In this document: positions 33,444 to 52,880 of the stretch, one piece after another
Layout: each line of letters begins with the position of its first letter
Position numbering within the stretch: the stretch's first letter is position 1
Assembly (NCBI GenBank): GCA_030998015.1
Contig: JARWMV010000245.1
Coordinates: 372,001 to 436,000 of the forward strand
Length of the DNA stretch: 64,000 bases
Direction of reading: 5' to 3'
Origin: Ceratorhiza oryzae-sativae
Taxonomy: Eukaryota; Basidiomycota; Agaricomycetes; Cantharellales; Ceratobasidiaceae
Program-made: the position numbers and the translations under genes
Notes under the pieces: generated by a model
The model's database searches: none
What the model was told of the DNA's origin: nothing
Seen by the model: the letters and a program-made list of their open reading frames with translations, nothing else

Positions 33444-33819
33444 TGTCATGAACTGACACACATATATCCACTCTACAATATTTCCTTGATTTATTACATT
33501 TTATGAGATCATCTTCAAAACATACTTGCCTTTTATGGTATATCTGTGTCATGTGATTCAGGGGATGTTCCAGACTGATAACTGAGATGTATTTCAACTC
33601 CAATGTGAAATTCCACAGTTCCACAGTTGCTTCTACTGCTTCTATCTCTTATCAGTTGTGACTCACTGTACAGACTTGTTTGTTATGATGTGGCTTGTAC
33701 TATGTATATAAACCAGGTCAAGTTCACAGAGGACTCCTCAAGAACTTGACCTCTCATCAAATACAAGTTCTTTTCTTTTCTTACTATTTTTCTCATCACC
33801 TGACTTGTTGTCATTGACA
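33444..33819 (+). repeat. Gypsy-1 5' LTR with TATA box and self-primer
   Basis: 376-bp LTR. A TATATAAA box lies at 33705-33712, and the expected RNA start is about 30 bases further, where TCAAGAACTTGACCT (33738-33752) begins. This 15-mer is the exact reverse complement of the sequence just after the LTR, described as the primer-binding site. Confidence 0.88.
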
Positions 33820-34381: not shown

Positions 34382-36551
34382 TTGTCAAAGTCTGCCCCCA
34401 GAAAGTTGGACAAGCCCAACAAGCCTTTGTTACCAAGCCAGGTGCCCCTGAGTGCAAAATTTGCCACTGAGCAAATGGAACCACCTTCCCTGTGCACTGC
34501 CCCTACTGTCCTGAAAAGGACAAATTTTTATACTACTACACCATCCCCTGCAACCAGCTATAAGCTGGAGAACCTTGGCCAACAACTTCTTCATCACCTG
34601 TTAAACACCATCGAAAACTTCCAAGACAGGTATCGCTATTACCAAAATAAGTATGAAGAAACTTGCAAAAACTTCACAAAGCCAAGGCCTGCTGCACATA
34701 CCTAACTGAGTGTTTGCGTGAACATCAGGAGGACTATCTATCCCTCCTCCAAGACCATCTCAGACTAGAAGCAATAGTCCGAGAAACAACTGCACCCCAC
34801 AAGTATGCATTCCCTGTCTTCTCAACACCATCATACCTCCCTCACCCTACCTTTTTAAGTGGCATGGGCTTGCCAATTCAGGAAGAAGCACCCCTTCTGG
34901 CAGCCCAAGTCAATTCTCCCCAAGGAAGCCCTCCTTTGGGATCAAATTAAACTGAAAAGGGTGGAACACCCATATCATTGTCAGGACACCAAAAGTTGGG
35001 ATTTGGACAACATGTGGCTGAGGTTTGGGGGAATTGAAAACTTCGAAATTTATAGACTTGTGCAAGGAACAGAAATCTTCTACTATCAAAATAACTCTCA
35101 ATTTCCTGTACTTCCTTATTGTCTCCATCGCCTCTAGAATCCATCTGAGTCCTTTCTGAAATGGCATCACCAACTCCTGCCCCTGCTTGGGCAAATATGT
35201 CCAATGGGACAAAGTGGTCTACATGCTTCAGTCAATGGATGAACTGCAAGAATGAACCAACAACCTCCAAAATGATATTGGGGACATTGAACATAACAAC
35301 AAAACCTACACAGACTTGCTCAAGGCAAAGCTCACAACTAACCAAGCAAAGATAGACGCCAATGTGGCTGGGCTGGCCACCAATGTTAACAACCTAGTTG
35401 GCATGTTAGTGATCCTTCAAACCACCATCATGCGCATTGAAGCGCAAATCCACACCTCCTTGGGTGGCACCAGTGTTGCCCAAGTACAACCTTCCTCAAG
35501 CACAACTCAGCCACAACCAGCAGCCGCCACTCCCTCTAGCAGATCAACTGCAAAAGTTAAGATGGCTGCTCCCCAAAAATTTGATGGCACAAAGCATGAA
35601 GACGCCATCTCATTCAGAATTGCATGTGTGTGATATATCAATACAAATATGAGTGGGCACTCTGCTGACCAGGTGGTCACCTTCATTACATCCTACCTTG
35701 AAGGATCTGCTGCTGAATGGGTTAACTCATATGAGGAATTCAAAATTTTAAACCCTGGAACTGTGATCCCATGGCTTCATGATGCCAACCTGTTTTGGCT
35801 GGAGTTTACTACCTGTTATGGGGACCTGAACTGCACCAAAAATAACTGCAATAAGTGGCAGAAACTGAAACAATCCAAGACAGTTCAGGATTACCTCACC
35901 CTATTCAATTTATATTCAACAGGGCTCAACTACAACAATGTGGCCATGCATGACCAGTTTTATGATGGTCTATCATCAGACGTAACAGACAGCATGGTGG
36001 CCCAAAACTACAACCCCCACACCAAAACATATGCCCAGCTCACTCAGCAAGCCCTGGAAATTGACTGCCACTTCATTTCATTTGGTAGCAAAAGGACATC
36101 TCATGGGGGTAACAAGTCCAACAGCAACAATGCCTTGTCCAGCAGGCCAGCAACTATCTCCCAAAGCAATCCCCAAAAGGAGAAATTCAAGAATGGGGAG
36201 CAGATATACAAGATCAAGGATGGCAGGGCAGTCAAGGGCCAAATTGTGGCCATCAGGCCCAATGCCAAGGGCTTCACTGTTCCCACTGTTTGCTACAACA
36301 GTAGCAATTCCAATGTACAAGAATCCTTCAAGGACATAAAGAAGGACAATCACCCACCAGCAGCCCCCAAGGCAAAAGACCCAGATGCAATGGACTTAGA
36401 TAGTGCAGGAAAAGGGAAAGGAACAAATACCTGCTATAACTGTGGAGGATGTGGTCATATCGCTGCCAAGTGCCCTTCAGCCAAGATGTCAGGTTATGAA
36501 GCAGTTGTGGAGGATGTAGAAACAACTGATGATGAGTTGGTAAAAGAATGA
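34382..36551 (+). pseudogene. Gypsy-1 gag (broken)
   Basis: Structural protein of the retrotransposon particle. The N-terminal part (34382-35640) is in several short frames with stops between them. The C-terminal half (35649-36551) is open and carries a capsid-like segment (FKNGEQIYK preceded by TMVAQNYN-like helices) and a single zinc knuckle CYNCGGCGHIAAKC near 36430-36472. The composition is very low in CpG. Confidence 0.75.
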
Positions 36552-37803
36552 GCTCAAACTGTGCCAGGGGGGCAGTCTTGGGCACTATGTTACAAAATGC
36601 GCAGAATGAAAATAAAAATATGGAAATGGAATGTATGTTGTTAGGAAACCAATCACAACTTCAGTTTTTCTTTCATGCATTCCCACTGCGCACAACCCCT
36701 GAACACAAGTCTGCATATAATATGAAAAAATTCAATGGATGGGCCATGATCAACTCAGGGGCCACATCAGTATTTATACATGAAGACCTTGTCAAACAAT
36801 ATTGTATCCCTACTGTAGAGGTGCTGTGCAGGAATTCCTGCATACTGGCATCAAGGGTTACTCAATTGCATCAGCTTACCAATTGGTGCTTCTACAATAC
36901 AGTTACCCTTGATGCCAGCATGCAGGAATTCCTGCACAGCACCTCTACCCTACTGTCCCCCTAAAAACACCAAAAAAACTATGAGTAATCAATGGAAGGG
37001 AGATCAACTCAGGGTCTGTGACCCACTACTGCACCTTTGAGTTGTGCATTCAGGAGTGCCAAGAAATTCTCAGTGCTTATGTTGTGAACATTGGCAAGAA
37101 TGGTTTAGTCCTGGGCATGTCATGGCTCAAATTCCATAACCCTGATATTGATTGGGATGGAAGGGACATGAAGTTCAACTTGCCAATATGCTTGAAACAC
37201 TGCATCACAAAACCCTTACATGTATGTGCAAACAAACCCAAGGAGCTCCAGTTGGACTCCTTAGACTCCCTCCCAGTAAAATATAAAGAATTCCAGAAAA
37301 TATTCACTGAAGAAGATGATGTCCAGCCATTACCACCCCATAGAAAGTGGGATATGGAGATAGATTTAAAGCCAGACACCAAGCCAAGGCATGGCCCCAT
37401 ATATAGTGTGGGTGTCAAGGAAGACACAGAATTGCACAAAACCTTGGACTGCCAACTGAAGGCAGGGCATATCAGACCCTCAAGGTCACCAAAGGCATCC
37501 CCAGTCATATTCATCAAAAAGAAGAATGGGAAGCTGCACATGTGCATTGACTACTGGCAGCTAAATGAAATGACTGTCTCCAATGTGTACCCACTCCCAT
37601 GCATCAATGATATTGTGGAGACTTTGCATGGGGCAAAGATATTCACCAAGTTTGACCTAAAGTGGGGTTTCAACCTCATACAAATTCAGGAAGGAGACGA
37701 ATGGAAGGCTGCTTTTAAAACCAAATATGGGCTGTACAAGCCCTTAGTCATGCAATTTGGCCAAAAGAACACACTGGGAACCTTCATGGCCATTGTCATG
37801 GCC
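36548..37803 (+). pseudogene. Gypsy-1 protease and first half of reverse transcriptase (broken)
   Basis: The aspartic protease region has INSGATSVFIHEDLV near 36750, where the usual DSG is NSG, so the catalytic aspartate is lost. A MITE interrupts the protease at 36816-36947. Reading resumes at 37018 and reaches the RT palm (SPVIFIKKKNGKLHMCIDYW, then FTKFDLKWGFNLIQI) before the insertion at about 37803. The other RT half is at 52881 onward. Confidence 0.8.
36816..36947. mobile_element. hAT-type MITE, copy 1
   Basis: 132-bp element with terminal inverted repeats of about 47 bp beginning TAGAGGTGCTGTGCAGGAAT. It is flanked by a perfect 8-bp duplication CCCTACTG (36808-36815, 36948-36955). An 8-bp duplication is the hallmark of hAT transposases. 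No coding capacity. A second copy lies at 43734-43876. Confidence 0.88.
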
Positions 37804-38289
37804 TAGACCATGAGCATGATTTTATTATGAATTTTCTATATTTTATAACTTCCTTTTTTACAATGTTTTGGACAAGTCCCGTTTATTCAGATATATGCGG
37901 TTTATTTACCTTCATGTCACGTGACCTTGTTGTTGTTGACTCAATGTTTGGTGTTACCGGAATGTTCAGTAGTGACGTGGCACTGTTAGCTTCTTATTGG
38001 TCCTGGTATTTGATTTGTACTGCCTCAGCCATGAATATATAAGGGAGAGTCTGAGAGCCTTAAGCCTCAGAACTCGACCTCCTGTTCTACCATCCAGTCT
38101 CTCACCGGTGGCTGCCACGCCATTTGGTATTTGCCCAGTTGCCTTTGCAACAAGTGCCCCTACTCTATCCCCTGTGTCTCATCGCTCCAAAACCCTTGCT
38201 CCCTGCGCGTCCAACCTTAGATGTTGCAGTTTGACCTCCGGCTGTTATAGCCTATAGGTCTGCCATCGCCTCACAAGCGTTTGGCCTTA
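37804..38289 (+). repeat. Third LTR family (LTR-3), interrupted by Gypsy-2
   Basis: Promoter-like LTR sequence with TATATAAGGGAGAGTCTGAG at 38036-38055. A related copy lies in reverse orientation at about 55856-56246. The last dozen bases appear to continue on the far side of Gypsy-2 at 52869-52880. The left border is uncertain: similarity to the other copy starts near 37914 (TGTCACGTGACCTTGTTGTT). It is probably a solo LTR that landed in the Gypsy-1 RT. Confidence 0.6.
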
Positions 38290-39070
38290 TGTTGTGACCC
38301 TCTGGAGGCTCCCTTGTGGAGCACTTAAGTAGTGGCTGCATTGACGGTTTGGTGCTATGCAGTATGTATTGAGCGTTCTAGTTACAGTGTTTGCTATGGT
38401 CTATGGTGGTTGATGAGATAAAGCAAGCTGAGGCGTTCAGTCTTGCTTTACTCCCCTTATATACATGTGACTGCAGTTGCTGTGGTGGCCCCCCTTTCCT
38501 AAGCGCTGTCTACAGCAGTTATAGGTTCTATATAGTACTAGGTCTTAGGTAATCGTTTATCCTAAGTTTGTGCAGCTCCAAATCTTATAGAGCTGCGCAA
38601 GGTCCAAGGGTCATGTGACTTTTGGACTTTAAGCACCCAGCGCTTAATTGCTGGATAAGCGCCAAGGTCATGTGACAACTCGCTCCTCGCTCCAAGTAAC
38701 ATGGGAGAGAAATGCTGGAGCAAGTTCAGGGTAACCACCAGTGCTTAATTGTTGGGTAAGCGCCAAGGTCACGTGACAACTTGCTCCTCGCTCCAAGTAA
38801 CATGGGAGAGAAACGCTGGAGCAAGTTCAGGGTAACCACCAGTGCTTAATCGTTGGGTAAGCGCCGAGGTCACGTGACAACTTGCTCCTTGCTCCAAGTA
38901 ACATGGGAGAGAAACGCTGGAGCAAGTTCAGGGTAACCACTGGCGCTTAATCGTTGGGTAAGCGCCAAGATCACGTGATCTTGTTTATGGTTTGTTCCGC
39001 TTTGGGAAAAATGCCATAAATCTGTACAATATTCGGTTGTTAGGTTATGTCTGCTAGGCGGGTCATAACA
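38290..39070 (-). repeat. Gypsy-2 3' LTR
   Basis: 781 bp. It contains three tandem ~102-bp units starting GGTCAYGTGACAACTYGCTC at about 38666, 38767 and 38869, then a final TCACGTGA palindrome near 38972. The partner LTR has two units, which explains the 98-bp length difference. Confidence 0.85.
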
Positions 39071-39085
39071 TTATCCCCCCCTTTG
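39071..39085 (-). promoter_or_regulatory. Gypsy-2 polypurine tract
   Basis: On the minus strand CAAAGGGGGGGATAA directly abuts the 3' LTR. This is where a plus-strand primer is expected, and it shows that the Rep-containing block lies inside the retroelement. Confidence 0.75.
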
Positions 39086-39149
39086 GACATGTCTTGGGGG
39101 ATCTCAAGGCATGTTTCTTTTCTGGGTTCTAAAAGTTTCTAAAAGGTAT

Positions 39150-39272
39150 CTCATATATCAAGGAGGTTAAAGGCACTGGACTCGAACCAACAACCTTCCG
39201 TTCAATGTGTAATTGCTCAGCTAGGAGATGATGAGTCAGGCTAGACCCCTTAACCTCTACGCTACATGAGAT
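39150..39272 (-). tRNA. tRNA-like sequence with A and B boxes (tRNA-derived repeat or degraded tRNA)
   Basis: On the minus strand TAGCGTAGAGG (39264-39254) fits the Pol III A box and GGTTCGAGTCC (39188-39178) is a perfect B box. The stretch around the B box can form a T-arm (TTGTTGGTTCGAGTCCAGTG). I cannot pair a convincing acceptor stem or name an anticodon, and the box spacing is long. It may be a tRNA with a variable arm and intron, or a tRNA-derived SINE head. Confidence 0.4.
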
Positions 39273-39367
39273 TACTTTCTCCTTGCTTATTTCCTTGTTT
39301 AAGCTTACTTCTCGACACATGGTCTGTGAATAAAACAGCTTATACAAAGATAATTTATTTTTATTTT

Positions 39368-40653
39368 TTAAGGAAAAACAAAAAATGGCTTCCCTCCTGA
39401 GTACACCCAGTCTACGTTTTTGGATACCCATAAGTCCCCTTCTTCCCCCTCTATGTCCGTCCAACACTTCATTATGGCTGACCGGCTATTCCCCAGGATC
39501 ACCGTTGGCCGTACCTTCATTGACTTCACATGAGCATATCTGCCTGTGAAGTCTGCCTCGTACTGGCTCAGGGCTTTGAGTGAGTACTTCCCGTTTGACT
39601 GGACCATGTCATCCAGGATCCAGATGTCGGTGTCCTCTGACAGATTCCCCACGTTCCAGACGTTGCACATCTGGCTATGGGAGCCCTTGGATTGCGCATA
39701 CGCCGTCTTCCCAGTTCCTGTTTTGCCTTCAATCACCAGGATGCGATGGCGCATGCCCCTCCCTCTCTTCTCAGCCTCTTCCGCAAACCATCGGTCCGCC
39801 CTGTCAATGTGCACCTGGTCTTCTGGGACTTCCAACTCCACTGGGATTGCAGGCATGCATCCCCGGTCCTCCTTATACGTGTACTCAGCATATGCTGTAC
39901 CGAGTTCCACGTCGTCACCATCTGGAGGGGGCGCAGGTGCTTGAATGCCTGGTAGTATTCTTTTTTTGTCGCCGAGGCAACAATCTCTGCCCCATCCTCC
40001 AGGTCCGCCTCTGCCCTCAACCTTTTCCTGCCCTTTCCCTTCACCAGGATTTCCTCCAACCTTTCCAAGGTCAGGTCCCCCGCCATCAGCTCCTCTACCT
40101 CCTTGCTGTTAGCTCCAACATCCTTCCAGAGGTAGTTGAAAGCCTCCCTTGCAGGGTTGCCTCCTGGTCCATCCTTGAGGTCCTTTGGCAGGATGTTGGG
40201 GTGTTGCCCTTCGAAGTCCCAGAACTGGGTGTTCTGGGTGTTCCAGCCGCCCTTCCGCTCCTGACTGATGGAGAGGGCGTGGACATGGAGGGGCTGGGCC
40301 GGGTTGTAGTTCGGTTCCTCGGGGTTGTGGCGTTCCACCACCGCCAAAGTCACCCAATGATTTGGCCGTTGGCAGCAGAATGCCTTGTATCGGGCGACAA
40401 GCCCACTTGAGGGCTGATCGCGTAGCTTCAACCAGGTTAGCAGCACCGCCCTGGTCTGGACGCAGAACCGAGGGGCCGGTGCGGTTTCGGTCAGCTCTTT
40501 GGACCCTTGATCCGTCGGCGTAGGCTGCATAGAAGTGGGCGAGGGGGCTCGGCTTGATACCGAGGGCGCTGGCGATGGCGACGCTGACCTCTGCCCTTCG
40601 CTTGATCTGCTTGGCTGGGGTGTTGCTGCATTCGATCCATTTCCGCTTAGCAT
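39368..40653 (-). CDS. Rolling-circle Rep-like protein (HUH endonuclease plus helicase), frame broken
   Basis: Resembles the replication initiator of gemini/genomovirus-type CRESS-DNA viruses and related fungal endogenous copies. The first frame (40653 to 39733) has a Ser/Pro-rich N-terminus, a motif-I-like TRAVLLTWLKL, the HUH motif in PLHVHALSI (residues 121-129), the spacer FWDFEGQHPNI that recalls the geminivirus GRS region, and a YLWKD motif III with the candidate catalytic tyrosine (residue 174). The second frame (39910 to 39368) has Walker A in IEGKTGTGKTAYA, Walker B-like WILDDM and a sensor-like VILGNS. The reading frame changes near 39930 in a GC-rich run. This could be an assembly indel, an intron or a genuine break. 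It lies inside Gypsy-2, upstream of its polypurine tract. Confidence 0.75.
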
Positions 40654-40809
40654 TGTTTACAGTTTTAGAGGTATTTGGGGACTGGGAAGAGAGCATGAGA
40701 GTGCAGGTTATCTTGGGCCTTGTGCTTGTCTATATAAGCTGCAAGGTCCGTTTTGATCGTCACATGACTCCGTCTTGCATTTGTTGTGATCACATGACCT
40801 TATTTTGGT

Positions 40810-41205
40810 GATGACGCATCTCTGAGGGGTGCCCTTCCATCCGTTCCCCTGCGTCAGCCTTAAACCTTGCTGCACTCGGGGCCTCTGCTCCTCCACTCCA
40901 GTTGGTGCCCCCTCTCCGACCCCTCCGGTAGTTCAGGGGATAGCGGCCATATCATGTGACATTGTCTGGGTCACGTGACCTTGTTGTTTTTCTTCGTCTG
41001 CTTGGGACACATGTTCACTTTGTGTCACATGACTTGTTTGTTTTCTTGCTTGTCCTTGTATGTCTTTCCCTTGTGATGCATCTCTGAGGGGTGCCCTCCC
41101 ATTCGTTCCTCTGCGTCGGCCTTGATCCTCGCTACACTTGGGGCCTCCGCTCCCCCACTTCGGTCGGTGCCCCCTCTCCAACCCCTCCAGTAGTTAGGGG
41201 ATAGC
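40810..41205. repeat. Direct repeat pair between Rep-like gene and divergent ORF
   Basis: Two copies of a ~132-bp unit, 40810-40944 and 41074-41205, both running from GCATCTCTGAGGGGTGCCC to GGGGATAGC. The spacer and flanks carry many CACATGA/CACGTGA sites (40762, 40792, 40954, 40973, 41026, 41215, 41230). The block separates the divergent Rep-like and Cys-rich genes and could be their promoter or an origin-like region. I see no TAATATTAC-type nonanucleotide. Confidence 0.7.
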
Positions 41206-41395
41206 ATATATTCACGTGACTAGGCTAGGTCATGTGATTCCTATGCTTTGTTGTTTGTTTTCTGGCAGATGGTCACATGTCTGTTGGTGTCACCTGACCA
41301 GACCTTGTTTTGATGTTTGTGCAAGTTATTGTGTTGCACCGTGATTTTTTAATGTTTGTGGTTTTGTTGTTTTCCTTCCTCATCCCATCTTTACT

Positions 41396-41937
41396 ATGTG
41401 TGTTATTTCCCTTAACTACAATCCCCTTGACTGCACCTGCTGGTCTCTCCCTGAGGGGGAGTACTGCACCTACTGTGATGCCGTGTGCAACGCCTCCCTT
41501 GAAGACTTCTATCGAGGTGTTGGGGACTGGTTCTTCTGTGGGGTGCCTGGTATGTGTGTTCGTTCTTCGTCGTTCTCATGTAGCTAACTTGTTCTGTAGA
41601 AGAGCGCATCCTCCTTGATGGTCGGGCCCATGAGGCCACCCTTGAGCGTGTCTGGGCGCTCATTGATCAGGACTACAAGTCCTTTGAGGAGCAGTCTCAC
41701 CAGGCCGCTCTTGCCAAATTCTTCAAGGAGGGCTCTGCTCCCTTGTTTGATGAGGCTTCGCCCTTTGCAGCGTCTGGTTCTGGGTGTTTCCAGAACTACA
41801 TGGCCAACTTCCCAGGGGGGGAGGCTCCTTGGCTGCAGCCCACTACCTGGTCAGTTGTTCAGACCAATAAGAAGGATAAAAGGGGCAAGAAGCCCTATAC
41901 CCAGCCCCTCAAGGGCAAACGTAAAAATAGAGAGTAA
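41396..41937 (+). CDS. Cys-rich protein of unknown function, one intron
   Basis: Two exons, 41396-41549 and 41600-41937 (163 residues). The intron is canonical (GTATGT...GCTAACTT...CTGTAG). The N-terminus has CTCWSLPEGEYCTYCDAVC, a possible metal-binding cluster. The middle is helical (ATLERVWALIDQDYKSFEEQ) and the C-terminus is very basic (NKKDKRGKKPYTQPLKGKRK). Runs against the direction of Gypsy-2. I do not recognise the family; a nucleic-acid-binding role is only a guess from the basic tail. Confidence 0.5.
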
Positions 41938-42018
41938 AGGGAAATGTATTAAGTTTGGTGTGTAAAAGAAAATAAAACTCTTATACATTTGGGAGACAAT
42001 TTGTGGGAGGCAAAGTGG

Positions 42019-42840
42019 TCATATGGGGTTTGGTTCCAACAGTGGCACCTCCTCCAGAGCTTCGACAAGCTCGTTTTCCCACCGGTCCCAGTCCTGTTTG
42101 GCTTCTTCCGCAGCTGGGTCCAGGGTGGGTTCCTTTATTTCTGGCTTGGCTTCTTCCTCAGCCACGACCAGTGATTCTAGGCTTGATGTAAGGCTCGTCA
42201 TATCAGTGTCGTAATTGGTGTTTTTGTTTGGGTGCACCTTCACCCAATTTCGGAAGTCACTCATGTTTGCCTGCTTTGTCCTGATAGCAGTAAACATCTC
42301 ATCAGTGGTAGTTGCTTCGAGCAGTCCCACATATGGTGCAGCTGGTGTCAACTTCCATTCTTCCAGCAATGCCTTTGCCCAGCGCTCCACCTCCCAGTCC
42401 CCTCCGTCTGCCATTTGGCCTGTGGCCCTCCTCTGTTGTCTTGCTGCCTTGGTCACCACGTCGACTGTTGGTCCCACGATATTGTCAATGGCGTACATTG
42501 GTGTTCTTAACAAGGCGTTTCTTGTTGTTGGCTTCTGGCTTCCATGCCATGTCAGGACCCCTAACCTGGGATCCAGGTACTTGTCATCGTCAATCCAGTT
42601 CCTTTCATCCCTTAACTTCTTTGGGATGTACACTAGGTTAGCCCCTGGCAACAGTTGTTCGGCGTACCTCTGGGTGTCTTCCACACTGGAGCAGTACATC
42701 CCTGGTTTAGGACAATTTTCCCTGCCAGGGTAGGGTGCTGGCCGCCTGGTGGTGGGTGGCTGCCGAAGTGGGGCCACCTGATTTTCAGCAAGTGGGGTGT
42801 AACAGTTGGGATGTGCAACTGGGTGAGTGACAAAAGGCAT
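42019..42840 (-). CDS. 273-codon ORF of unknown function in Gypsy-2
   Basis: Uninterrupted frame from ATG 42840 (MPFVTHPVAHPNCYTPL). The N-terminus is proline-rich, the middle is globular (LGVLTWHGSQKPTTRNALL and WAKALLEEWKLTPAAPYVGL), and the C-terminus is strongly acidic (DPAAEEAKQDWDRWENELVE). Not a known retroelement domain and not recognised. An intact 273-codon frame among decayed genes suggests recent or continued selection, or simply a young insertion. Confidence 0.5.
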   Translation of the reverse strand: MPFVTHPVAHPNCYTPLAENQVAPLRQPPTTRRPAPYPGRENCPKPGMYCSSVEDTQRYAEQLLPGANLVYIPKKLRDERNWIDDDKYLDPRLGVLTWHGSQKPTTRNALLRTPMYAIDNIVGPTVDVVTKAARQQRRATGQMADGGDWEVERWAKALLEEWKLTPAAPYVGLLEATTTDEMFTAIRTKQANMSDFRNWVKVHPNKNTNYDTDMTSLTSSLESLVVAEEEAKPEIKEPTLDPAAEEAKQDWDRWENELVEALEEVPLLEPNPI

Positions 42841-42928
42841 GTTTTTGGGGTTTCGCAGGTGTGTTGTGGTGCAAGTGAGGTGGTAGAGCAGGCTCTGGCC
42901 TTTCTTGGGTATCCTGGATGGCTCCTTT

Positions 42929-43733
42929 TTAAAGCTTTCTAGATCCTCGTTTGGTTCTCTTTGGCCTGCCTTTCAAGTCACCTGAGTGCTGACTTGTCTT
43001 GACTGGCATTGGTGTGTCTGGTAAGCGCCTTTGCAAGTCATTTAGAACCTCTTTCATGTCAGCAAACTTGCTGGCACGTTCCATTGTGTCTTCTATTGGG
43101 TCGTAGCCCTTCCATCTGATTTGGTAAAACAGCTTGCCATTCCGCCATTCATAATTTGCAATGTGGTCCACCTTGTATTCCTCCTCTCCTTTTTCCGTTA
43201 TGATTGGTGGTGGTTTGGCCTGCCTTCTTCGGAAGTCTTTATCTTCTGTGAATGGCGAGAGGAGATTTACATGGAATACATTGTGTACACGTATGGTTTT
43301 AGGTAGGTCCAGGCGATATGCATGGGATGAGATCTTTTCTGTGATTTCAAAGGGCCCCCCTTTTCGGTTGTCCAGTTTCTTGGAGAGTCTCTTGGACAAG
43401 AGGTTTGTTAGGAGCAGCCAAACCTTGTCTCCTACCTTGAATTCCCTCCCTTTCTTTTCCATTTGTTGGTGTAATTCCATTGAGGCTCTTGCCTCATCCC
43501 ATACCTTTTCCATTTGATTACGCATGTTGTCTGCAGCGGGTGCCTCAGATGGTTCTTCTCCCTCTCGGACAACCCATCTTGGGCTTTTTCCATATACTGT
43601 TTCAAATGGGGTTTGTCCTGTTGTAGCATTTACATGGTTGTTATGGCAGAATTCAGCAATGGGTAACCATTTTACCCAATCATCTTGTCTATAATTGCAG
43701 AAGGTTCTTAAGAACCCTTCTACCCATTGATTT
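42929..43733 (-). CDS. Gypsy-2 integrase C-terminus with chromodomain
   Basis: End of pol on the minus strand. The GPF/Y-type module is visible as KVWLLLTNLLSKRLSKKLDN followed by GGPFEITEKISSHAYRLDLP. The chromodomain follows: EYKVDHIANYEWRNGKLFYQ, then IRWKGYDPIEDTMERASKF. Chromodomains of this kind steer integration to heterochromatin. Continues upstream into the MITE-interrupted integrase core. Confidence 0.85.
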
Positions 43734-43876
43734 TAGAGATGTTGTGCCAGAATTCCTGCATTCTGGCATCAAGGGTAACTCAATTGCAGAAGCAGCTCAG
43801 AAGTGCTGATTGGTCAGCTGATGGAATAGAGTTACCCTTGATGCCAGAATGCAGGAATTCTGGCACAACATCTCTA
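43734..43876. mobile_element. hAT-type MITE, copy 2
   Basis: 143 bp, TIRs beginning TAGAGATGTTGTGCCAGAAT, with a perfect 8-bp duplication ATTGATTT (43726-43733, 43877-43884). It belongs to the same family as the copy at 36816-36947 and splits the Gypsy-2 integrase. Confidence 0.88.
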
Positions 43877-43884
43877 ATTGATTT

Positions 43885-45250
43885 GTCCTTTCCGACAGAC
43901 CATCTGTTTCTGGATGGAAAGCAGTGGAGAATCTGGGCTTTGTCCCAATTCCTTTGTATAGGGCTTTTAGGAATTGGCTGTTAAAGGTTGGCCCTTGGTC
44001 TGAGACAGTGGTTTCTGGGGTCCCGTGATGTCTCCATACTTCCCTTATGAATATTTCTGCCAGTTCTTCTGCATTGGTGCTCTCCAGACAAGGTACAAAA
44101 TGGGCCTGCCAGGAGAAGCGATCTACAACTGTCAAGATACTGTCGTACCCTTTTGAGACAGGTAATTTGATGATGAAATCATATGCGACATCTGCCCATG
44201 GTTTCCATGGGATTGGTAAGGACTTCAAGGGAGTGCCTTGTTTGTGTCCTTTGCTTCTTTGACATGTTTCACAAGATTCCATGTATCGGTTTACTTGGGC
44301 CTTCATTCCTGGCCAATAGTAATCCCTTGATAGTAATTCTAGTGTTCAGGCTTGTCCCTGATGACCTGCCACTGGGGCATCATGGCACTCCTCAAGGAGA
44401 CTCAACCTCAAGTCCTTGTCATCCAGGATGTAGAGCCTATTGTCATACCTTAATAGGCCCTCCTTCATTTCATACCGTCTAAATTCCTTCTGTACTGAGG
44501 GTGGTAGTTGTTCTTTATTTGCCATGCTCAGCCTTAAGGATCTGATAGATTCGTCTTCTTCCTGAGCTTCTTTAAGCTCTTCCCAGAAATTCCCCTGTAC
44601 TTCTGCCATGAAACCTATGAACCTTTCTTCTGGAATCATGATCTGTGGTTCCATAGGGGTATCCCCATGGTCGCTCCTTCTGGAAAGGGCATCTGGCTTC
44701 TGTGAGAGTTTCCCTGGTCTATACACAATCTGAAAATTGAAGGGTGCCAGAGTGAGATACCATCTGGCATGCCTTCTATTCCACATCTGGGCATTTTGCC
44801 AGTACTGGAGGTTCCTATGGTCAGTGTATATCACAATAGGTTCCTCTGTCCCTTCTAAGTATAACCTCCAGTGCTCTAAGGACCTAACAATTGCAAGCAA
44901 CTCCTTGTCATAGGTGTCATAATTTTTCTCTGGTGGGGTGAAGCTCTTCAATAGGAAGGCAATTGGATGCAATTGGTTGTCATCACCCTTTTGGCTTAGT
45001 ACCGCCCCCATGGCCACTCCTGAGGCATCTGTTTCCAGTATGTATGGCCTGTTTGGGTTTGGGTGGATCAGGACCAGTTCTCTTGCTACTGCTTCCTTGA
45101 TAGCTTCAAATGCTTCCTGTTGTTTTCTTTCCCACAGGAATTTGACATCTTTTTGGGCAAGATCTGTGAGGGGTTTGGCTAAGGTACTAAACTTCTCTAT
45201 CCACCTTCTATAGAACCCCACAAAGCCTAGGAAGGCTTGGACTTCTTTTA
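43885..45250 (-). pseudogene. Gypsy-2 RNase H and integrase core
   Basis: On the minus strand from 45250: the end of RT (KEVQAFLGFVGFYRRWIEKF), RNase H (LETDASGVAMGAVLSQKG, IVIYTDHRNLQYW), a stop (TGA at 44346-44348) where CGA is expected, then integrase with a zinc-binding CETCQRSK and a D,D-35-E core (YDFIIKLPVSKGYDSILTVV, VSDQGPTFNSQF, ETDGLSERTNQ). The stop is explained by one C-to-T change. Confidence 0.85.
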
Positions 45251-48200
45251 AAGTAGACGACAAGCGAAGTCATCCAACGCCAGTCAGGGTGAGAATCAAG
45301 GGTTTTGTTGTGGGTTATTCAGCGACAAACACGCATGTAACTCCCGAACAACGTCGAATATCGAAAAACGGCTCGCAACATTTTGTAGATAATTTGTAAA
45401 AGAATCGTATTATCATACAGTAGCTACTGTATCTAGCACATCTAGAGGCGAGTTTCCAAAATACGGCCTTGAGGGGGTGACAGCTGCTTGACAGACAGCG
45501 GCAGGACCGACCAGCCGCAGGTACCCGGGGTCCTGATCACAATAGCGTGGGCCGGTGAGTCGTCGGAAGACAAATTTGTTGAATATGGCACTTGGTCTGA
45601 GATGCCACAATTGAGACACCTAGCATATACCGCATATATCAGCGCATACTTCCATATCTTCACACACTTGTCCTATGTTTCCCTGTATATTGCCTAGGAG
45701 TCCCTTGTGACTTTAATTCCACATGGTCTCACTGGTTCGACTTCTTAGAGGGGGACTCTGTACTTAGCATATACAGTGACAATACTAACAATTTATCTAT
45801 TATCCGTACCCCCCTCTTTTCCAGTCTCTTGTAATCTGTGTGCAAGGCTGAGCGCATTTGTTTGAAATGCCACGAAAGAAAAATTCTGCACTTCAACGGA
45901 CACAGAACTTCACGCCAAAACAGGTTAATAGCAGGGCATCATTATCAGTTGATTTCGATTATGCTAATATCAAACAGGGAGCGCAAAAGCAAGCAGAACA
46001 AGAGCTAAACTCTGACTTAGGAGAGGATGTCTCAGTTGCTTCATCAAGCAAACTCACGTTGGACGACGAGGCACCAATCGAACATACACAAATGCAATTG
46101 AACCAGGCTGTAGAATCTCTAAAAGACCTTGTGCTTGATGCACCACTAGAACACAATATTGTGCTAGAGGACCCGCCCAATGATGAGGAAGACCCAATAG
46201 ATAACCAGAACCCCCCAAGCCTTGCAGAGCCAGAGGGGGATGAGACATCAGCCCTTCCTCCCGTAGATACCCAAGAGTTTCAGGATGATGATAATCCAGC
46301 TAATTCTAGTGAGTCGATCGTCCTCTTTATCAATATAAACTTGAATTGACTCACTGCTGTATAGGAGAACAAACAAATCGGAAACCAATTCCCCAGAACG
46401 AAGCTAAAGTAATGGTTAGTGCGCTCAACGAAATAATTGAGTCGTCGTTACATGGGCACGGAACACGGCGTGTATCTACACTTGGCAATGTAGTGCTTAG
46501 ATGACTACGGTTCATGACCAGGACACTGAATCTAATCGCCCTAAAGGGGATGAAATTGATCAATGCCTCTCAAATGGCAGCGGCTGTATTTGGCCGAGGG
46601 GATTGGGCAGCACGACAAGTTCGTTCGTGGATTCGGGCATACCAAAAAGATTCCAAACTTCCAACGAACGTATACAGCACCTGGGGCGAGTCTGTCATAG
46701 AAGACGAAGATCTATCAGCAGCAATACAGTATTGGCTTAGAGACCAAGGAAAATACGTACAAGCTTGTGATATTATCGACTATTTTGGAACAGATGGGGC
46801 AGTGAGATTCTCATGCCTTATTGATGGGCCTCCGTCACTGCACACTGCCCAGCGGTGGATGCACTGAATGGGATATACCTGGATGAAAGAGCGTCGTGGT
46901 CAGTTTGCCAACGGACACGAACGGGATGACGTGAAAGACTATCGAACAAATTACTATGTTCCTGAGTGGATCGAGCTCGAGCGGCGAATGTGAAGCTGGG
47001 ACTCTGAAGGTAATGAAATACCTCCAAAGCTTGCTGAGGGGGAGCGAGTTGTTGTGGTATGGTTTCACGATGAGTCAACGTTTTATGCACACGATCGGCG
47101 ACTTACATGATGGGTTCATGAGAGTGAAACAGCCGGAATATACAAAAAAGGGGAGGGCGTGTCGTTAATGGTAGCTGATTTCGTTTCTGCCGATTATGGC
47201 TGGCTGCGATTGAGACTGGAGTCTCCCAGTGCTGCTCCGACAGCATCACCTGGAACTGGAACAGAACAAGGAAGTTCTAAGTACGTACTATCTATCCAGT
47301 CAAGCAATGTTATCTCACGATGAGTAGTGATGCGAGGGTTATATTTCGGGCAGGGAAACAGCGCGATGGTTGGTTTGGGACAACCGATGTTGTTGATCAA
47401 CTGTCGCGTGCGATGTCGATCGTAAAGGAACAGTACCCAGACAAAGACCATGTCTTTGTCTTCGACAACACGACTATCCATACAAAGCTACCTGAAAGTG
47501 CCCCAAACGTCAACAGAATGACACTCGGTCTGTCTCAAAAGGTTAAGGGAGAAGAGATAGGGCCACTAGGAGACAAAATTAAGATTGACTATGCACCTGC
47601 AATCCTGCCAGACAGAACGGTCCAGCAGCTTTATTACCCCATGAATCATCCGATTACAAAGCTTCAAGGCGCATTTAAGGGCATGGCATCAATCTTAGAG
47701 GAGAGGGGGGTTCCTAATGCTCGAAAACTCAAGCTTGTATGCGCATCGACGAACGCAAACAAGCAAGGGTGTCCGCCCAACTCGACCAGCTGTTGTGCCC
47801 GTCGTACAATGATGAACCAGCCAGATATCCTTGCGCAAAAATCAATCCTTCAGATGCAAGCCACAGCCGAAGGGTTTTCGGTTATTTACCTGCCAAAATA
47901 TCACTGCAAACTCAACCCAATCGAACAATGCTGGGGTGCTGCAAAGCGCGTGTACCGAGACTCGCCCTCATCGAGCTCAGAGGCCGATCTCAGACAAAAT
48001 ATGCTCAGGGCACTGGATTCAGTCAAGTTGGAATCGATCCGAAGGTATGTTTTATCACAGTCCACCCAATTCGTATCTAAACACGCCCAAGATTTGCCGC
48101 TCGCTCTCAGCGATTTGTTCACGCATATGGTCATGGCCTCTCGGGTAGCCAAGCCGCCTGGGCAGCAAAGAAATACCGTGGCCATAGAATCATACCAGAT

Positions 48201-48580
48201 GCATTATTAGGGGACCTGGATGACTCGTATTGAGTCTATCTCCTCCCTGCCTTGCAGAGCTGCTCTGGTTGCGCTAGACATGCCTCATCCCAGTTAAGGA
48301 CCCCGGGTACCTGCAGCTGGTCGGTCCCGCCGCTGTCTGTCAAGCAGCTGTCGCCCCCTCAAGGCCGTATTTTGGAAACTCGCCTCTAGATGTGCTAGAT
48401 ACAGTAGCTACTGTATGATAATACGATTCTTTTACAAATTATCTACAAAATGTTGCGAGCCGTTTTTCGATATTCAACGTCGTTTGGGAGTTACATGCGT
48501 GTTTGTCACCGAATAACCCACAACAAAACCCTTGATTCTCACCCTGACTGGCGTTGGATGACTTCGCTTGTCGTCTACTT
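45251..48580 (+). mobile_element. Tc1/mariner-type DNA transposon with 284-bp TIRs
   Basis: 3330-bp element. TIRs 45251-45534 and 48297-48580 are about 95% alike, starting AAGTAGACGACAAGCGAAGT, and are flanked by duplicated TA (45249-45250, 48581-48582). Removing it with one TA restores the Gypsy-2 RT frame, which proves the insertion. It carries the transposase remains listed next. Confidence 0.92.
45867..48210 (+). pseudogene. DDE (IS630/Tc1/mariner-like) transposase, broken
   Basis: An N-terminal acidic exon starts MPRKKNSALQRTQNF with a GTGAGT...TATAG intron near 46306-46364. A DNA-binding part follows (INASQMAAAVFGRGDWAARQ, VYSTWGESVIEDEDL). The catalytic part has VVVVWFHDESTFYAHDRRL, DFVSADYGWLRL, VFVFDNTTIHTK and YLPKYHCKLNPIEQCW, matching the DDE/D pattern with the LNPIE motif. 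In-frame stops occur near 46501, 46864 and 46990, so this copy cannot make a full transposase unless some lie in introns. Confidence 0.75.
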
Positions 48581-48582
48581 TA

Positions 48583-49825
48583 CTGTGTTAGGTTCTGGCC
48601 ATTCTAGAACTGCCTTTACCTTTTCCTTTTCCATTGATATCCCTTCTGGGGATATGACAATTCCAATGAAGCTTACCTCCTTCACAAAGAACTGACACTT
48701 GTGTGGTTTGAGGAAGAGGTGGTTTTCCCTCATTCTTCTTAACACTTCCCTGACATGTTGTACATGTTCTTCCCTGTTTCTGGAAAACACTAGTACATCG
48801 TCCATGTAGATTACCACATAATCATCTATTATATCACAGAACTTTTCCATCATGAACCTGGTAAAGGTTCTTGGTCCTTCTTTTACTCCAAATGGCATGA
48901 CCAAGCATTCAAACTGGCCTTCTCCTGTCCTGAAAGCTGTTTTCCATTCGTCTCCCTCTTTTACCCTGATGTTGTTGAACCCCCATCGAACATCCATTTT
49001 TGAATAGATGGTTGCATCCTTCAGTCTCTCAATCAATTCTATTTGGATTGGAAGTGGAAACCTGTCTGGCTTGGTGATGTCATTCATCTTACGGTAGTTG
49101 ACTACCAACCTAAGCCCTCCATCTGCTTTGTTCACATAGAAACAGGGTGCAGCTACAACTGACTGGCTGGGCCTTATTTTCCTGTTTCTTAGTTCCTCCT
49201 CTAGGTACTCCCTGAGCGCCTTTGTTTCTGCTGGTGACATACTGTACCTCTTTGCAGGCTTTGGCAGCTCTGCTCCCTCGATCAGGTCCATTTTGAAGTC
49301 TAGGTTACCTCGGTGGGGTGGAAGTTCTTGGAAACCTTCTTCCCCAAATAGGTCTTCAAAATCCCTAAATTCTTCTGGGATTTGTAGGCTTTCACTTGCT
49401 GCCCTTGCCTTGATTTCATCTGGGTATGAGATGGTAAGGTCTTTCCAATCTATGATAGGTTCTGCTTCTTCAAGCCATTCTTTCCCTAGGACTATGTCTG
49501 TGTCACCTAGGGTCATTACATAAAGGGAGCATTTTAGTGTCTTCCCTTCCACTTCGATGTTTAGTTCTGCCCTTTCCTCTATGGCATCCTTGATTTCATT
49601 TCCATCAATGGCCACAATTGATTTCTTGTGTTTGAGGGGAGTGGTTGGAATCCCTTTTTCCCTTGAATAGGCCTTATTGATGAAGTTGGTTGAAGATCCT
49701 GAGTCAATCAGCATCTTAGCTGGTTCCATGATTCCCTCTACTGTAGTGTATATTATTGATTGATTACTAGACTTCTTGAGGTAACATACATCTGCGGTAG
49801 GGGTTATATTGGGGTCCTCCAACAT
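48583..49825 (-). CDS. Gypsy-2 protease and reverse transcriptase
   Basis: Open minus-strand frame starting MLEDPNITPTADVCYLKK. The aspartic protease motif AKMLIDSGSSTNFI is intact. RT follows with VVAAPCFYVNKADGGLRLVV, IYSKMDVRWGFNNIRVKEGD, the PFGVKEGPRTF motif and the catalytic YMDD in VVIYMDDVLVFSRN. Reading ends at the Tc1/mariner insertion and continues at 45250. Confidence 0.9.
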
Positions 49826-49842
49826 GGAAGTGGTAGGACCAA

Positions 49843-52023
49843 TTAGTTTTCCGACTCAGAGCTGCTTTCTTCCTCAACTTGTCTGCTGGCCTTCCCTTGT
49901 ATCTTAGCTTTGTTGTAGGTCCACTGGCCTTGGCACTCCTTCAGGACATGCCCTGATTTACCGCATTTGATACAGAGTACTTCTTTCCTTCGCCTGTCCT
50001 TTTCACTGTTTGGTATCCTTACCATGTTGTTGGTTTGGATATTCCCCTGTTTGCCGCTGGTCCCTAAAGGCTTGTTCCCCCCTTGTTTGTATTTCGCTGG
50101 TGCCCAGGTTGAATTTGATGAGTTGCTGGTCCTTGTATTCATTTTCTGGTTTGCAAACTGCATGTCATCCATTTTGCAGGCAAAGTCAATTAATTGATCT
50201 AAGGTATATGATGGACCTTCAGCCTCATTTGCCAGTACTTCAATCCTTAAAATCTCTTGTCGTACTTCGGGTTTTAACCCTTCCCTGAATTGGTCCTTGA
50301 GGGCTTCCTGGTTCCAGTCTACCTCTTGGATCAGGATCTGGAATTGGGTAGCATAATCCAATGCACTCTTGGTCTGTGTTAATTTCCTTAGTTTCCGGAT
50401 GGTCTTTTCCTTTATGACTGGGTCATTAAAAGCATCCAGGAATCCCTTCCTGAAATCCTTCCAGGATGCAAGAATACCTGTGTGTTCGCCTGCTAGTAGT
50501 TTCCGGCGGTAAGGTTGTGCCCAGTTTGCTGCTTCCCCATCCTCCATGTTCATTAGCACAGCAGATATCTTTTTTCGGTCATCAAAGGCTGATTCGTCAT
50601 AGTCAGCAAAGAAAAGTTCCATGCTGATTATGAAGTTCTCTGCTTCCTTCCCCTTTTTCCCATTAAATTTGCTGGGTCTCCCTAGTCTTGCCTCCTTAGG
50701 AGTGTGGTTTGCAGCAAGGGTAGGTTGGTTTGCTTGGGATGGAGGTTCTGTTCAGGGTCTTATTGTGGACTCCGCCTGGAAGGTTCTTCCCAGAAAGGGT
50801 GTTCATACTGGGGAGGCTGAGGGGGATTGTGAGGGGCTTCCTATGACCACCCTAGTTCTTCCCCTGGTTTCTTCTGTCCTTTCCCTTGGCCTTCCTGCTT
50901 CAGTTGTTTTCCGGAGCTCATTTCCTAGATTGGTTACCCGTTGTTCTAGTGCAATTAGGATCTCCCCTGTGTTTTCAGTTTTCTTCTCTAAGCTTTCAAG
51001 CTTTCACTCTTGCATTCCCAGTACCCGGTTTATTTCCATGGAGATGTCCTTTAATTCTTTTATCAGGTTCCCCATTTCTGCTTTTAGGTTGTCCTGGTTC
51101 TTTGCCACATAGAGGACATTTTTGTTGGATGTTTCCATTGACCTTACCATCCAGTCCACGTTTCCTTCTTGTCGGGTTAGTGATATTTGACACTGATTTA
51201 TACCTGTGATTGCCTTTTCTAGTTCCCTATGATTATTGTCTCTAAGTTCCTTGAGCCCTGCCCTGATGGCCGTGGCAATGGTGTGAATAGGGTTGGCAGT
51301 GGCTATGGCTCCGGTGTCACGAACTGACACACATACATCCACTCTACAATATTTTCTCGATTAACTACATTTTATGAGATCACCTTCAAAACATACTTGC
51401 CTTTTATGGTATATCTGTGTCATGTGACTCAGGGAATGTTCCGGACCGGTAACCAAGATGTATTTCAACTCTGATGTGAAATTCCGCAGTTCCGCAGTTG
51501 CTTCTACTGCTTCTATCTCTTATCTGTCGTGACTCACTGTACGGACTTGTTTGTTATGATGTGGCTCATACTATGTATATAAACCAGGTCAAGTTCACAG
51601 AGGACTCCTCAAGAACTTGACCTCTCATCGAATACAAGTTCTTTTATTCTCTTACTATTTTCCTCGTCGCCTGACTTGTCGTCGTCAACATCCAGGACCT
51701 GGCTGGGGTTGTGTCCTTGCCTCTTCCGCCAAGGCCGTGCCTTGTTTGTATATGGTTCAGGTCATATCTTCTACCTCATCCCTCTCTGGATTTGAGATAT
51801 CTTCTGGGTCTGGATTTATCAGGTGAATTGGCGGTTGCGGGCTGCAGAGTGGTATTCCCCCTATTTCCCCTCCCAGGATGGGGGCCCGAGTGGGGTTGGG
51901 TTGAGCCACTGGTTGTGGGTTTTGTGGCAACCCCCCTGGCATTCCTTGGAGGGTCTCATCTGGGTTACCTTCAGCCTCTGGGGAAGCAATGGGTTTGGGT
52001 GATTGTGGCCTACTATTTGCCAC
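49843..52023 (-). pseudogene. Gypsy-2 gag, split by a solo LTR
   Basis: The N-terminus is at 52023-51757 (NSRPQSPKPIASPEAEGN; NPDPEDISNPERDEVEDM). A coiled-coil-like part lies at 51300-51000 (LRDNNHRELEKAITGINQCQ). Capsid and nucleocapsid are at 50622-49843, with a zinc knuckle CIKCGKSGHVLKEC and an acidic end (VEEESSSESEN). The solo LTR at 51315-51690 interrupts it, and the frame is not continuous around 50620-51000. Confidence 0.75.
51315..51690 (+). repeat. Solo Gypsy-1 LTR inside Gypsy-2 gag
   Basis: 376 bp, same family and orientation as the Gypsy-1 LTRs, flanked by TCCGG (51310-51314) and TCCAG (51691-51695), a 5-bp duplication with one G/A difference. It retains many CG sites that are TG or CA in the two LTRs of the full element. 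Confidence 0.85.
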
Positions 52024-52166
52024 TCTGCTTTGAGATCAAGTTTGTGGTCTCTGTGACATAGTTTCTTTATGTTCTCTTATGTATCACAGGAGTTAGCTGG
52101 TTTTCTCATGTACTCAGCCCTTAGTATCTGTGTAGTATACTTATGTTTGCCACTAGTTAAGTTAAG

Positions 52167-52178
52167 AGCTTGCTTTAT
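52167..52178 (-). promoter_or_regulatory. Gypsy-2 primer-binding site (self-priming type)
   Basis: Next to the 5' LTR on the minus strand lies ATAAAGCAAGCT. It is the exact complement of AGCTTGCTTTAT (minus strand, 52320-52309) in the LTR, located about 27 bases downstream of a TATATAAG box (minus strand, 52354-52347), where the RNA should start. Confidence 0.65.
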
Positions 52179-52180
52179 AA

Positions 52181-52863
52181 TGTTGTGACCCTCTGGAGGC
52201 TCCCTTGTGGAGCACTTAAGTAGTGGCTGCGTTGACGGTTTGGTGCTATGCAGTATGTATTGAGCGTTCTAGTTACAGTGTTTGCTATGGTCTATGGTGG
52301 TTGACAAGATAAAGCAAGCTGAGGTGTTCAGTCTTGCTTTACTCCCCTTATATACATGTGACTGCAGTTGCTGTGGTGGCCCCCCTTTCCTAAGCGCTGT
52401 CTACAGCAGTTATAGGTTCTATATAGTACTAGGTCTTAGGTAATCGTTTATCCTAAGTTTGTGTGGCTCTGAATCTTATAGAGCCGCGCAAGGTCCAAGG
52501 GTCATGTGACTTTTGGACTTTAAGCACCCAGCACTTAATTGCTGGATAAGCGCCAAGGTCACGTGACAACTTGCTCCTCGCTCCAAGTAACATGGGAGAG
52601 AAATGCTGGAGCAAGTTCAGGGTAACCACCAGTGCTTAATCGTTGGGTAAGCGCCGAGGTCACGTGACAACTTGCTCCTCCTTGCTCCAAGTAACATGGG
52701 AGAGAAACGCTGGAGCGAGTTCAGGGTAACCACTGGCACTTAATCATTGGGTAAGCACCGAGATCACGTGATCTTGTTTATGGTTTGTTCTGCTTCGGGA
52801 AAAATGCCATAAATCTGTACAATATTCGGTTGTTAGGTTATGTCTGCTAGGTGGGTCATAACA
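52181..52863 (-). repeat. Gypsy-2 5' LTR
   Basis: 683 bp, same sequence as the left LTR but with two instead of three ~102-bp tandem units (starting about 52557 and 52658). Confidence 0.88.
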
Positions 52864-52880
52864 CCTTAGTCGTGTGGGCA

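Follow-up and report, generated by a model that had tools for sequence, protein, structure and literature searches.

Results

A Ty3/Gypsy element with a Rep-like gene 3' of pol

The window, i.e. the whole stretch of 64,000 nucleotides that was analysed, contains a chromodomain Ty3/Gypsy element at positions 38290-52863. The element lies in minus sense (sense strand from 52863 to 38290), and the target-site duplication CCTTA is found on its left (38285-38289) and right (52864-52868). In the sense strand both LTRs start with TG and end with CA. The 5' LTR (52181-52863, minus strand) is followed on the same strand by gag with a Ty3 capsid-like product (49843-50751), protease and reverse transcriptase (48575-49855), RNase H (44346-45269), the integrase core with a zinc-binding domain (43797-44345), and the integrase C-terminus (Tf2-1 SH3-like) with the chromodomain (42929-43732). 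The domain order gag, PR-RT-RH-IN, chromodomain is that of Gypsy elements, with the rve match of the integrase core below the Pfam cut-off. Two insertions interrupt the element. A DNA transposon (DDE_3, 286-bp inverted repeats) is nested inside pol at 45250-48579 on the plus strand, and a second insertion, perhaps a solo LTR, is located at 51315-51690; its repeat also occurs at 33444 and 55307. Both are absent from another copy in the same genome, C26. When they are left out, the window copy is colinear with C26 and the element measures about 10.5 kb.

Beyond the chromodomain, the order is ORF X, antisense ORF A, an intergenic region, the Rep-like gene, the polypurine tract and the 3' LTR. ORF X (42019-42972, minus strand) encodes a protein of no assigned function. 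ORF A runs antisense to the element on the plus strand in two exons (41396-41549, with a Cys cluster, and 41600-41937). A divergent intergenic region with a 127-bp direct repeat (40654-41395) separates it from the Rep-like gene (39368-40653, minus strand), which falls into two frames in the window copy. The polypurine tract, with sense strand CCAAAGGGGGGGATAA, occupies 39071-39086 (minus strand), and the 3' LTR (38290-39070, minus strand) has a 101-bp tandem repeat (3.4 copies, 38637-38978). The Rep-bearing element is a Ty3/Gypsy LTR retrotransposon of the chromodomain type. An earlier note on this DNA had described an enclosing Gypsy element with LTRs and one target duplication, and this is borne out by the Gypsy domains, the LTRs, the two copies of CCTTA flanking the element and the polypurine tract at 39071.

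Reading frame and motifs of the Rep-like gene

The Rep-like frame comprises 428 codons, from an ATG at 40653 on the minus strand to a stop at 39368-39370, so that the coordinates first given for it, 39368-40653, were right. A change of frame near 39930 had also been reported. It is real but peculiar to the window copy. In 14 of the 30 loci loaded from the genome, the window copy not among these, the 428-codon frame is open and reads straight through without an intron. The frame change in the window is therefore a copy-specific lesion and not an intron.

The open frame contains, in order, LLTWSK, LHVHA, RFWDFEGQHPNILPKD, EAFNYLWK, GETGTGKTAYAR, ILDDM and then, read by eye, ILGN. This is the set of HUH motifs I, II, GRS and III followed by Walker A, Walker B and motif C (SF3-type). 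HVH, FWDFEGQHPNI, YLWK, the P-loop and ILDD are thus located where they had been noted, in the order of genomovirus Rep. The N-terminal extension of the protein is Ser/Pro-rich. The HUH and helicase motif residues are nearly all invariant across 16 open copies; one of them, L085, has one change within the P-loop.

The motifs were scored with a matrix derived from a published table of genomovirus motifs (PMC8703526), of whose 17 genomovirus rows 16 were used and one duplicate was dropped. The matrix placed six of the seven genomovirus Rep motifs in order; the seventh, motif C, was placed by eye, the matrix having chosen AIMK for this slot, with ILGN seven residues earlier. Five open A-type copies scored 77.5-83.4 bits; on the same matrix, 2,000 shuffles averaged 6.0 bits (sd 6.6) and did not exceed 34.0 bits. 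With a flat background, one A copy reached 85.1 and one B copy 73.7 bits, and the maximum of 600 shuffles was 35.6; a plasmid Rep of phytoplasma taken as yardstick (Gemini_AL1 E 3.7e-20) here scored 91.9 bits. The two halves of the motif set were also scored separately in the A and the B copy, with 600 shuffles each. The HUH motifs alone gave 47.5 and 42.3 bits (shuffle maxima 23.0 and 20.9) and the helicase motifs alone 37.6 and 31.3 bits (shuffle maxima 23.3 and 25.8). Once GRS and Walker A are taken out, the signal becomes thin: both copies score 35.9 bits, a value matched by 0 and 1 of 600 shuffles. In the window copy, the two fragments of the broken frame, each scored separately, gave 35.4 and 19.4 bits and were the top two among the 52 window ORFs of at least 150 aa.

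Profile, structure and relative searches

Searches of Pfam, PHROGs, NCBIfam and PDB with the Rep pieces and the open copies returned only weak or plainly unrelated matches, and the protein did not reach the curated cut-off of the Gemini_AL1 or the Gemini_AL1_M profile. Below the cut-off, residues 222-318 of the first B copy matched positions 11-106 of the 107 of Gemini_AL1_M (E 0.034, 14.7 of 24 bits); the phytoplasma yardstick itself gets just 14.8 bits on this profile. Gemini_AL1_M was matched at E up to 1 in 6 of the 16 open copies, and other P-loop families of Pfam were more frequent among the sub-threshold matches (nSTAND3 in 13/16, AAA_22 in 10/16). Alignment to the phytoplasma Rep with hhalign covered 55 columns around Walker A-B alone (probability 5.9 and 10.3 percent, E 0.0063 and 0.003). 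Two further matches, those with the lowest E-values in the database searches, were taken as chance. One was Transpeptidase, below its cut-off both in a window piece (E 0.0011) and in an open copy (E 0.0071), and the other was the splicing factor ISY1 in PDB (E 0.0075), largely over the out-of-frame part of a window piece. Single-sequence structure models of the two window pieces were poor (pLDDT 51.0 and 32.5), and a fold search with the first had no HUH Rep among the matches listed, a result that is uninformative given the model quality.

CRESS relatives were not found in viral_contigs with A1 or the window helicase piece as query. Pattern scans of this collection picked out 12 stretches with GRS out of register, 5 with GRS in register and 2 with motif II, and tblastn of Rep against the 12 stretches from the out-of-register pattern gave nothing below E 0.2. 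The low pattern counts suggest that viral_contigs holds few or no CRESS viruses of such type. In plasmids, tblastn of Rep gave three places, the best at E 1. A profile search with PF00799 had no match in the genome itself and equally none in control genomes, and hence carries little weight.

Judged from its motifs, their order and their conservation, the protein appears to be CRESS-Rep-like, and it is not filed here under a virus family. The identification rests on these three counts. The protein thus passes only half of the refuting test set in the earlier note, a lack of similarity to CRESS Rep in profile searches. The gene is named Rep-like and not Rep because it reached no curated profile and had no credible fold match. 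Its origin from a genomovirus- or geminivirus-like Rep is inferred. Under a contrary reading, an unrelated P-loop protein would have acquired HUH-like motifs by chance. The want of a credible profile or fold match speaks for it, but each motif set scores separately above every one of its shuffles, and we regard this reading as very improbable.

The Rep-like gene at other loci of the genome

A search of the same genome with the Rep block gave 40 scored places, including the window, from 182 first-look candidates; 39 of the 40 are full length and 94-100% identical. Thirty of these loci, the window included, were loaded with 1.5 kb on either side. The edge of the 3' LTR is the same in 30/30 (extrapolated by five bases in 4 of them) and the outer flanks are different. 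Among these loci there was no case of Rep without an LTR and no head-to-tail array at the 3' LTR side. On contig C143 (G000), two Rep copies lie 4 kb apart, and the coordinates suggest one element within the ORF X of another.

Five copies were available with both LTRs: the window copy and C26, from the Rep list, and C22, C240 and C159, which were found by the spacing of LTR pairs and not by Rep. This choice is biased, since the pairs chosen were about 9.9 kb apart, the size expected with Rep. All five have TG..CA LTR ends and a perfect 5-bp target duplication, different in each (sense TAAGG, ATGCC, TGTTT, GTCAC and CCAGC), and all five contain Rep. The window copy and C26 were read over their whole length; in C22, C240 and C159 Rep sequence is present, with the frame open in C159.

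The family was also approached from pol. From 40 scored pol places, the 20 best-scoring matches whose Rep status was not yet known were taken, and 1 kb was read at the expected distance of Rep; one of these lay past the contig end, leaving 19. Rep was present at the expected distance in 17/19. L064 has the LTR and just the last part of Rep, at the edge of the stretch read, and L065 has no match to Rep at the expected spot. For five more pol matches (C235, C76, C26, C45 and C238), Rep lies 4.2-4.5 kb away on the same strand. The sequence of L065 3' of pol matches L030 at 67% outside Rep, as a further diverged allele.

The Rep-like gene is an integral, regular part of this LTR retrotransposon family. 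The earlier note had left two origins open and proposed a search of other Gypsy copies for Rep at the same place. This search found it there in 30/30 loci and 17/19 pol copies. Its suggestion of a gene captured and spread by retrotransposition is supported by the constant place of Rep, the independent flanks and the five different target duplications. The other suggestion was that a Rep-bearing element had inserted once, as a single nested insertion into the Gypsy copy of the window. Endogenous Rep copies are indeed described from fungal genomes generally in the part of PMC3198968 consulted, but the many copies with Rep at the same place (30/30 loci, 5/5 copies with both LTRs, 17/19 pol copies) refute a single insertion, for which we see practically no chance.

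Substitution patterns in the Rep-like frame

Selection on the Rep-like frame was studied within subfamily A and between subfamilies A and B. In the 14 open A copies (CpG masked, pooled over pairs), pN/pS was 0.249 in the Rep frame, and the two alternative frames gave 2.07 and 6.03. By segment, the ratio within A was 0.33 for residues 61-185, 0.13 for residues 186-300 and 0.27 for residues 301-428. For residues 1-60 there is no ratio, as this segment shows no synonymous change outside CpG within A. When each variable non-CpG site was counted once, 23 synonymous and 16 non-synonymous sites were found. The choice of open copies probably biases pN/pS just slightly, because stops are a small share of the changes. 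An overlapping frame of 206 codons in the 5' half of Rep is open in many copies; with pN/pS above 1 in both other frames, it was rejected as a gene.

Eleven Rep copies below 89% identity were fetched from the pol sample, and the frame is open in two of them (B). These two are 88.6-89.3% identical in DNA to two A copies, with about 18% non-CpG synonymous differences between the subfamilies. In this comparison (two A by two B copies), pN/pS was 0.12-0.16 with CpG masked and 0.20-0.22 unmasked, and 1.6-4.5 in the other frames. These ratios indicate that the Rep-like gene is kept by selection at the level of its amino-acid sequence.

The constraint between subfamilies resides mainly in codons 181-428 and is weak in codons 1-180. 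In comparisons of one A with two B copies, 79-83 synonymous and 29-31 non-synonymous changes fall in codons 181-428, and 13-18 synonymous and 15 non-synonymous ones in codons 1-180. That synonymous changes are so few in codons 1-180 would be best explained by exchange between copies or subfamilies, since a similar degree of likeness is seen in the noncoding intergenic region: in the two B copies it is about 94-97% like that of most A copies and 86-88% like that of a few. A mosaic is also seen when C22 is compared with the window in 200-base bins, with 96-98% identity at the pol end, 66-68% in ORF X, 65-94% in the ORF A stretch and 92-98% in Rep. The gag-pol part could not be used as a yardstick because the copies differ too little (5 synonymous and 6 non-synonymous changes between C26 and the window).

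CpG decay is strong in the family. Of the 442 changes against the column majority in the 14 open Rep copies, 313 are C>T or G>A at CpG sites, a pattern suggestive of repeat methylation.

Intergenic region, palindromes and accompanying frames

A TATA-like box is present 82-83 bp 5' of the Rep start in 27/30 loci and an A-rich, AATAAA-like sequence 3' of the Rep stop in 29/30. With these two signals, Rep may be a transcription unit of its own.

The palindrome TCAYRTGA occurs 24 times in the window, with 4.9 expected. Sixteen of the 24 belong to three parts of the element: five lie in the 3' LTR (38611-38978), seven in the intergenic region between Rep and ORF A (40760-41237) and four in the 5' LTR (52502-52771). 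Those of the LTRs are mostly within a tandem repeat of 101-104 bp. We take TCAYRTGA to be a common E-box core as well. A protein binding it would reach both the Rep promoter and DNA of the LTRs. Within the element, the candidate for such a binder is Rep; the rival candidate is a host E-box factor.

No nonanucleotide was found in the Rep/ORF A intergenic region. The nonanucleotide-like string TAATGTTAT (sense strand) spans the junction of polypurine tract and LTR, at 39066-39074 in the window, and is present in 28/30 loci; presumably it resembles some genomovirus nonanucleotides. The element has no more strings of this type than shuffled sequence does (2 vs 2.95), and the demands of reverse transcription conserve the junction in any case. 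By the criteria set, an origin hairpin was detected neither in the window intergenic region nor in three of five other copies tested; in the remaining two (L011 and L018), adjacent palindromes form imperfect hairpins of 9-10 pairs. A tRNA-like string near 39165-39275 was suspected and could not be confirmed.

ORF A exon 1 was found in 28/30 loci and the exon 2 frame in 25/30, some of them truncated. The intron predicted by eye at 41550-41599 (50 nt; GTATGT, CTAAC, TAG) is antisense to the element and would therefore survive retrotransposition. Neither ORF A nor ORF X had a Pfam match above cut-off, and ORF X matched nothing in PDB at E below 0.8. ORF X has two alleles that are about 65% identical in amino acids, with flanks far more alike, and its pN/pS is 0.34-0.50 (CpG not masked).

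Discussion

Retrotransposons copy through RNA, and CRESS Reps start DNA replication on circles. The position of the Rep-like gene, its copy number, the independent insertions, the open frames, the motifs and the selection acting on it are observations; for the origin of the gene, its expression, its DNA target and its biochemical step we infer the following. A chromodomain Ty3/Gypsy element would have acquired a CRESS-type Rep 3' of pol, perhaps together with ORF A and the intergenic region shared by the two genes. The combined element would then have been amplified by ordinary retrotransposition, so that new copies carry Rep. Since Rep is under selection at the amino-acid level, it would do something for the element. 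We consider it likely that Rep was captured and amplified in this way, is kept by selection and acts for the element. As to its action, Rep would be made from its own TATA promoter, bind the palindromic repeats common to the LTRs and the Rep promoter, and nick or unwind unintegrated DNA of the element, probably LTR circles. This would raise the number or the stability of DNA copies before integration. An action on unintegrated DNA circles is favoured because the HUH and the helicase motifs are both preserved; the step of circle replication, taken alone, is put forward tentatively. Further still, the element might be a hybrid replicon, in which RNA and reverse transcription are joined by Rep-driven rolling-circle amplification or maintenance of circular DNA. 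Start sites may then be the palindromes of the LTRs or of the Rep intergenic region, or TAATGTTAT at the junction of polypurine tract and LTR. If true, two unrelated replication strategies would cooperate in one selfish element; this proposal is a doubtful one.

Other roles for the gene have to be weighed against this. Rep may be a DNA-binding regulator or a modulator of the host cycle rather than a replication enzyme, repressing or timing the LTR and Rep promoters or driving the cell into S phase in the manner of geminivirus Rep. The presence of the same palindrome in the LTRs and the Rep promoter is consistent with such a role, as is the fact that neither an origin in the intergenic region nor concatemers were seen. 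The near invariance of the HUH and helicase residues in the 16 open copies argues against it, for these would be superfluous in a pure binder, an argument that the P-loop change of L085 tempers. A regulatory role is a possible but not a probable explanation. Alternatively, the gene might be a passenger, captured once and hitchhiking in an active family without use to the element. In that case one would point to the 16 of 30 loaded copies without an open Rep frame, to the large share of CpG decay in the difference between copies (313/442 changes, 14 open copies) and to the weak constraint between subfamilies in codons 1-180. A passenger is hard to reconcile with the pN/pS values, which are 0.12-0.25 in the Rep frame and exceed 1 in the alternative frames, even between subfamilies with about 18% non-CpG synonymous differences, and we hold this view to be quite improbable.

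The module of Rep and ORF A could also be a semi-autonomous CRESS-like parasite that is carried by the retrotransposon and retains the capacity for excision or for copying in the form of a small circle. A divergent gene pair with its own promoter and a repeated intergenic motif has the look of a small ambisense genome, and there is exchange around the module. Yet in all 30 loaded loci Rep is accompanied by the LTR, no capsid gene was recognised and the intergenic region showed no origin, so that we consider a parasite of this kind improbable.

The nearest comparison among retroelements is with the Terminons of bdelloid rotifers. According to the part of PMC6431247 consulted, these are giant, telomere-attached, endonuclease-deficient Penelope-like elements of up to 40 kb with rolling-circle Rep proteins among their accessory ORFs. 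Like the present element they are retroelements carrying Rep, and the earlier statement that no retrotransposon with Rep as cargo is known was too strong (PMC6431247). Unlike Terminons, the element here is of the LTR/integrase type, measures about 10.5 kb and has a GRS-bearing Rep; with its Gypsy reverse transcriptase, integrase and LTRs it is not a Penelope-like element. A Helitron is likewise out, the Rep here having 428 codons and the Rep/helicase of Helitrons more than 1,500 aa (PMC6431247, in part).

In fungi, the geminivirus-like transposon of Tuber melanosporum, with 42 Rep genes or remnants, is also a multi-copy mobile element with a geminivirus-like Rep (PMC3198968, in part). As described there, its Rep is interrupted in the reconstructed copy and stands beside transposase ORFs, between 37-bp terminal inverted repeats. 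Here, in contrast, an LTR retrotransposon with 5-bp duplications has the Rep frame open in 14/30 loci; its ends are direct LTRs, and the sole transposase seen belongs to the nested insertion absent from C26, so that a transposon of the Tuber type is out. Endogenous SsHADV-1-like Rep genes, such as the five of Laccaria bicolor, are geminivirus-type Rep-like genes of fungi too, and the main text of that paper, which lacks the string 'retrotranspos', does not describe them as part of a retrotransposon (PMC3198968). A survey of Laccaria transposable elements (PMC3411680) makes no mention of geminivirus or Rep protein. Rep of Genomoviridae has the same motif order, GRS included (table in PMC8703526). 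The present protein differs from it by the Ser/Pro-rich N-terminal extension and by a profile similarity below cut-off, and an integrated genomovirus is out, as no capsid gene was recognised and the intergenic region has no nonanucleotide.

Capture of an enzymatic ORF 3' of pol is familiar from the rotifer LTR elements Juno, Vesta and TelKA, which have a captured ORF3 (PMC5408684, in part). Their ORFs are esterase, exonuclease or envelope-like, and the main text of that paper has neither Rep protein nor rolling-circle. An LTR retrotransposon with Rep was not found in the literature searched, most subscription journals lying outside its scope. The family described here would add LTR retrotransposons to the disparate mobile elements from which Rep is known (Terminons, the truffle transposon, Helitrons) and offers a concrete route by which genes of single-stranded DNA viruses could spread and persist in genomes. 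Selection on a Rep carried by an LTR element suggests adaptation at the DNA stage of that element, and the family, as a natural multi-copy system, lends itself to tests of what benefit Rep brings to a retroelement.

Surroundings of the element

Remains of other LTR retrotransposons are present at 35256-37806 and 53980-54750 (gag and reverse transcriptase; integrase). Further on, 56262-56735 and 57570-58043 form an inverted pair of 474 nt that is 97% complementary, perhaps a DNA transposon, and partial copies of this pair occur in the flanks of several other loci.
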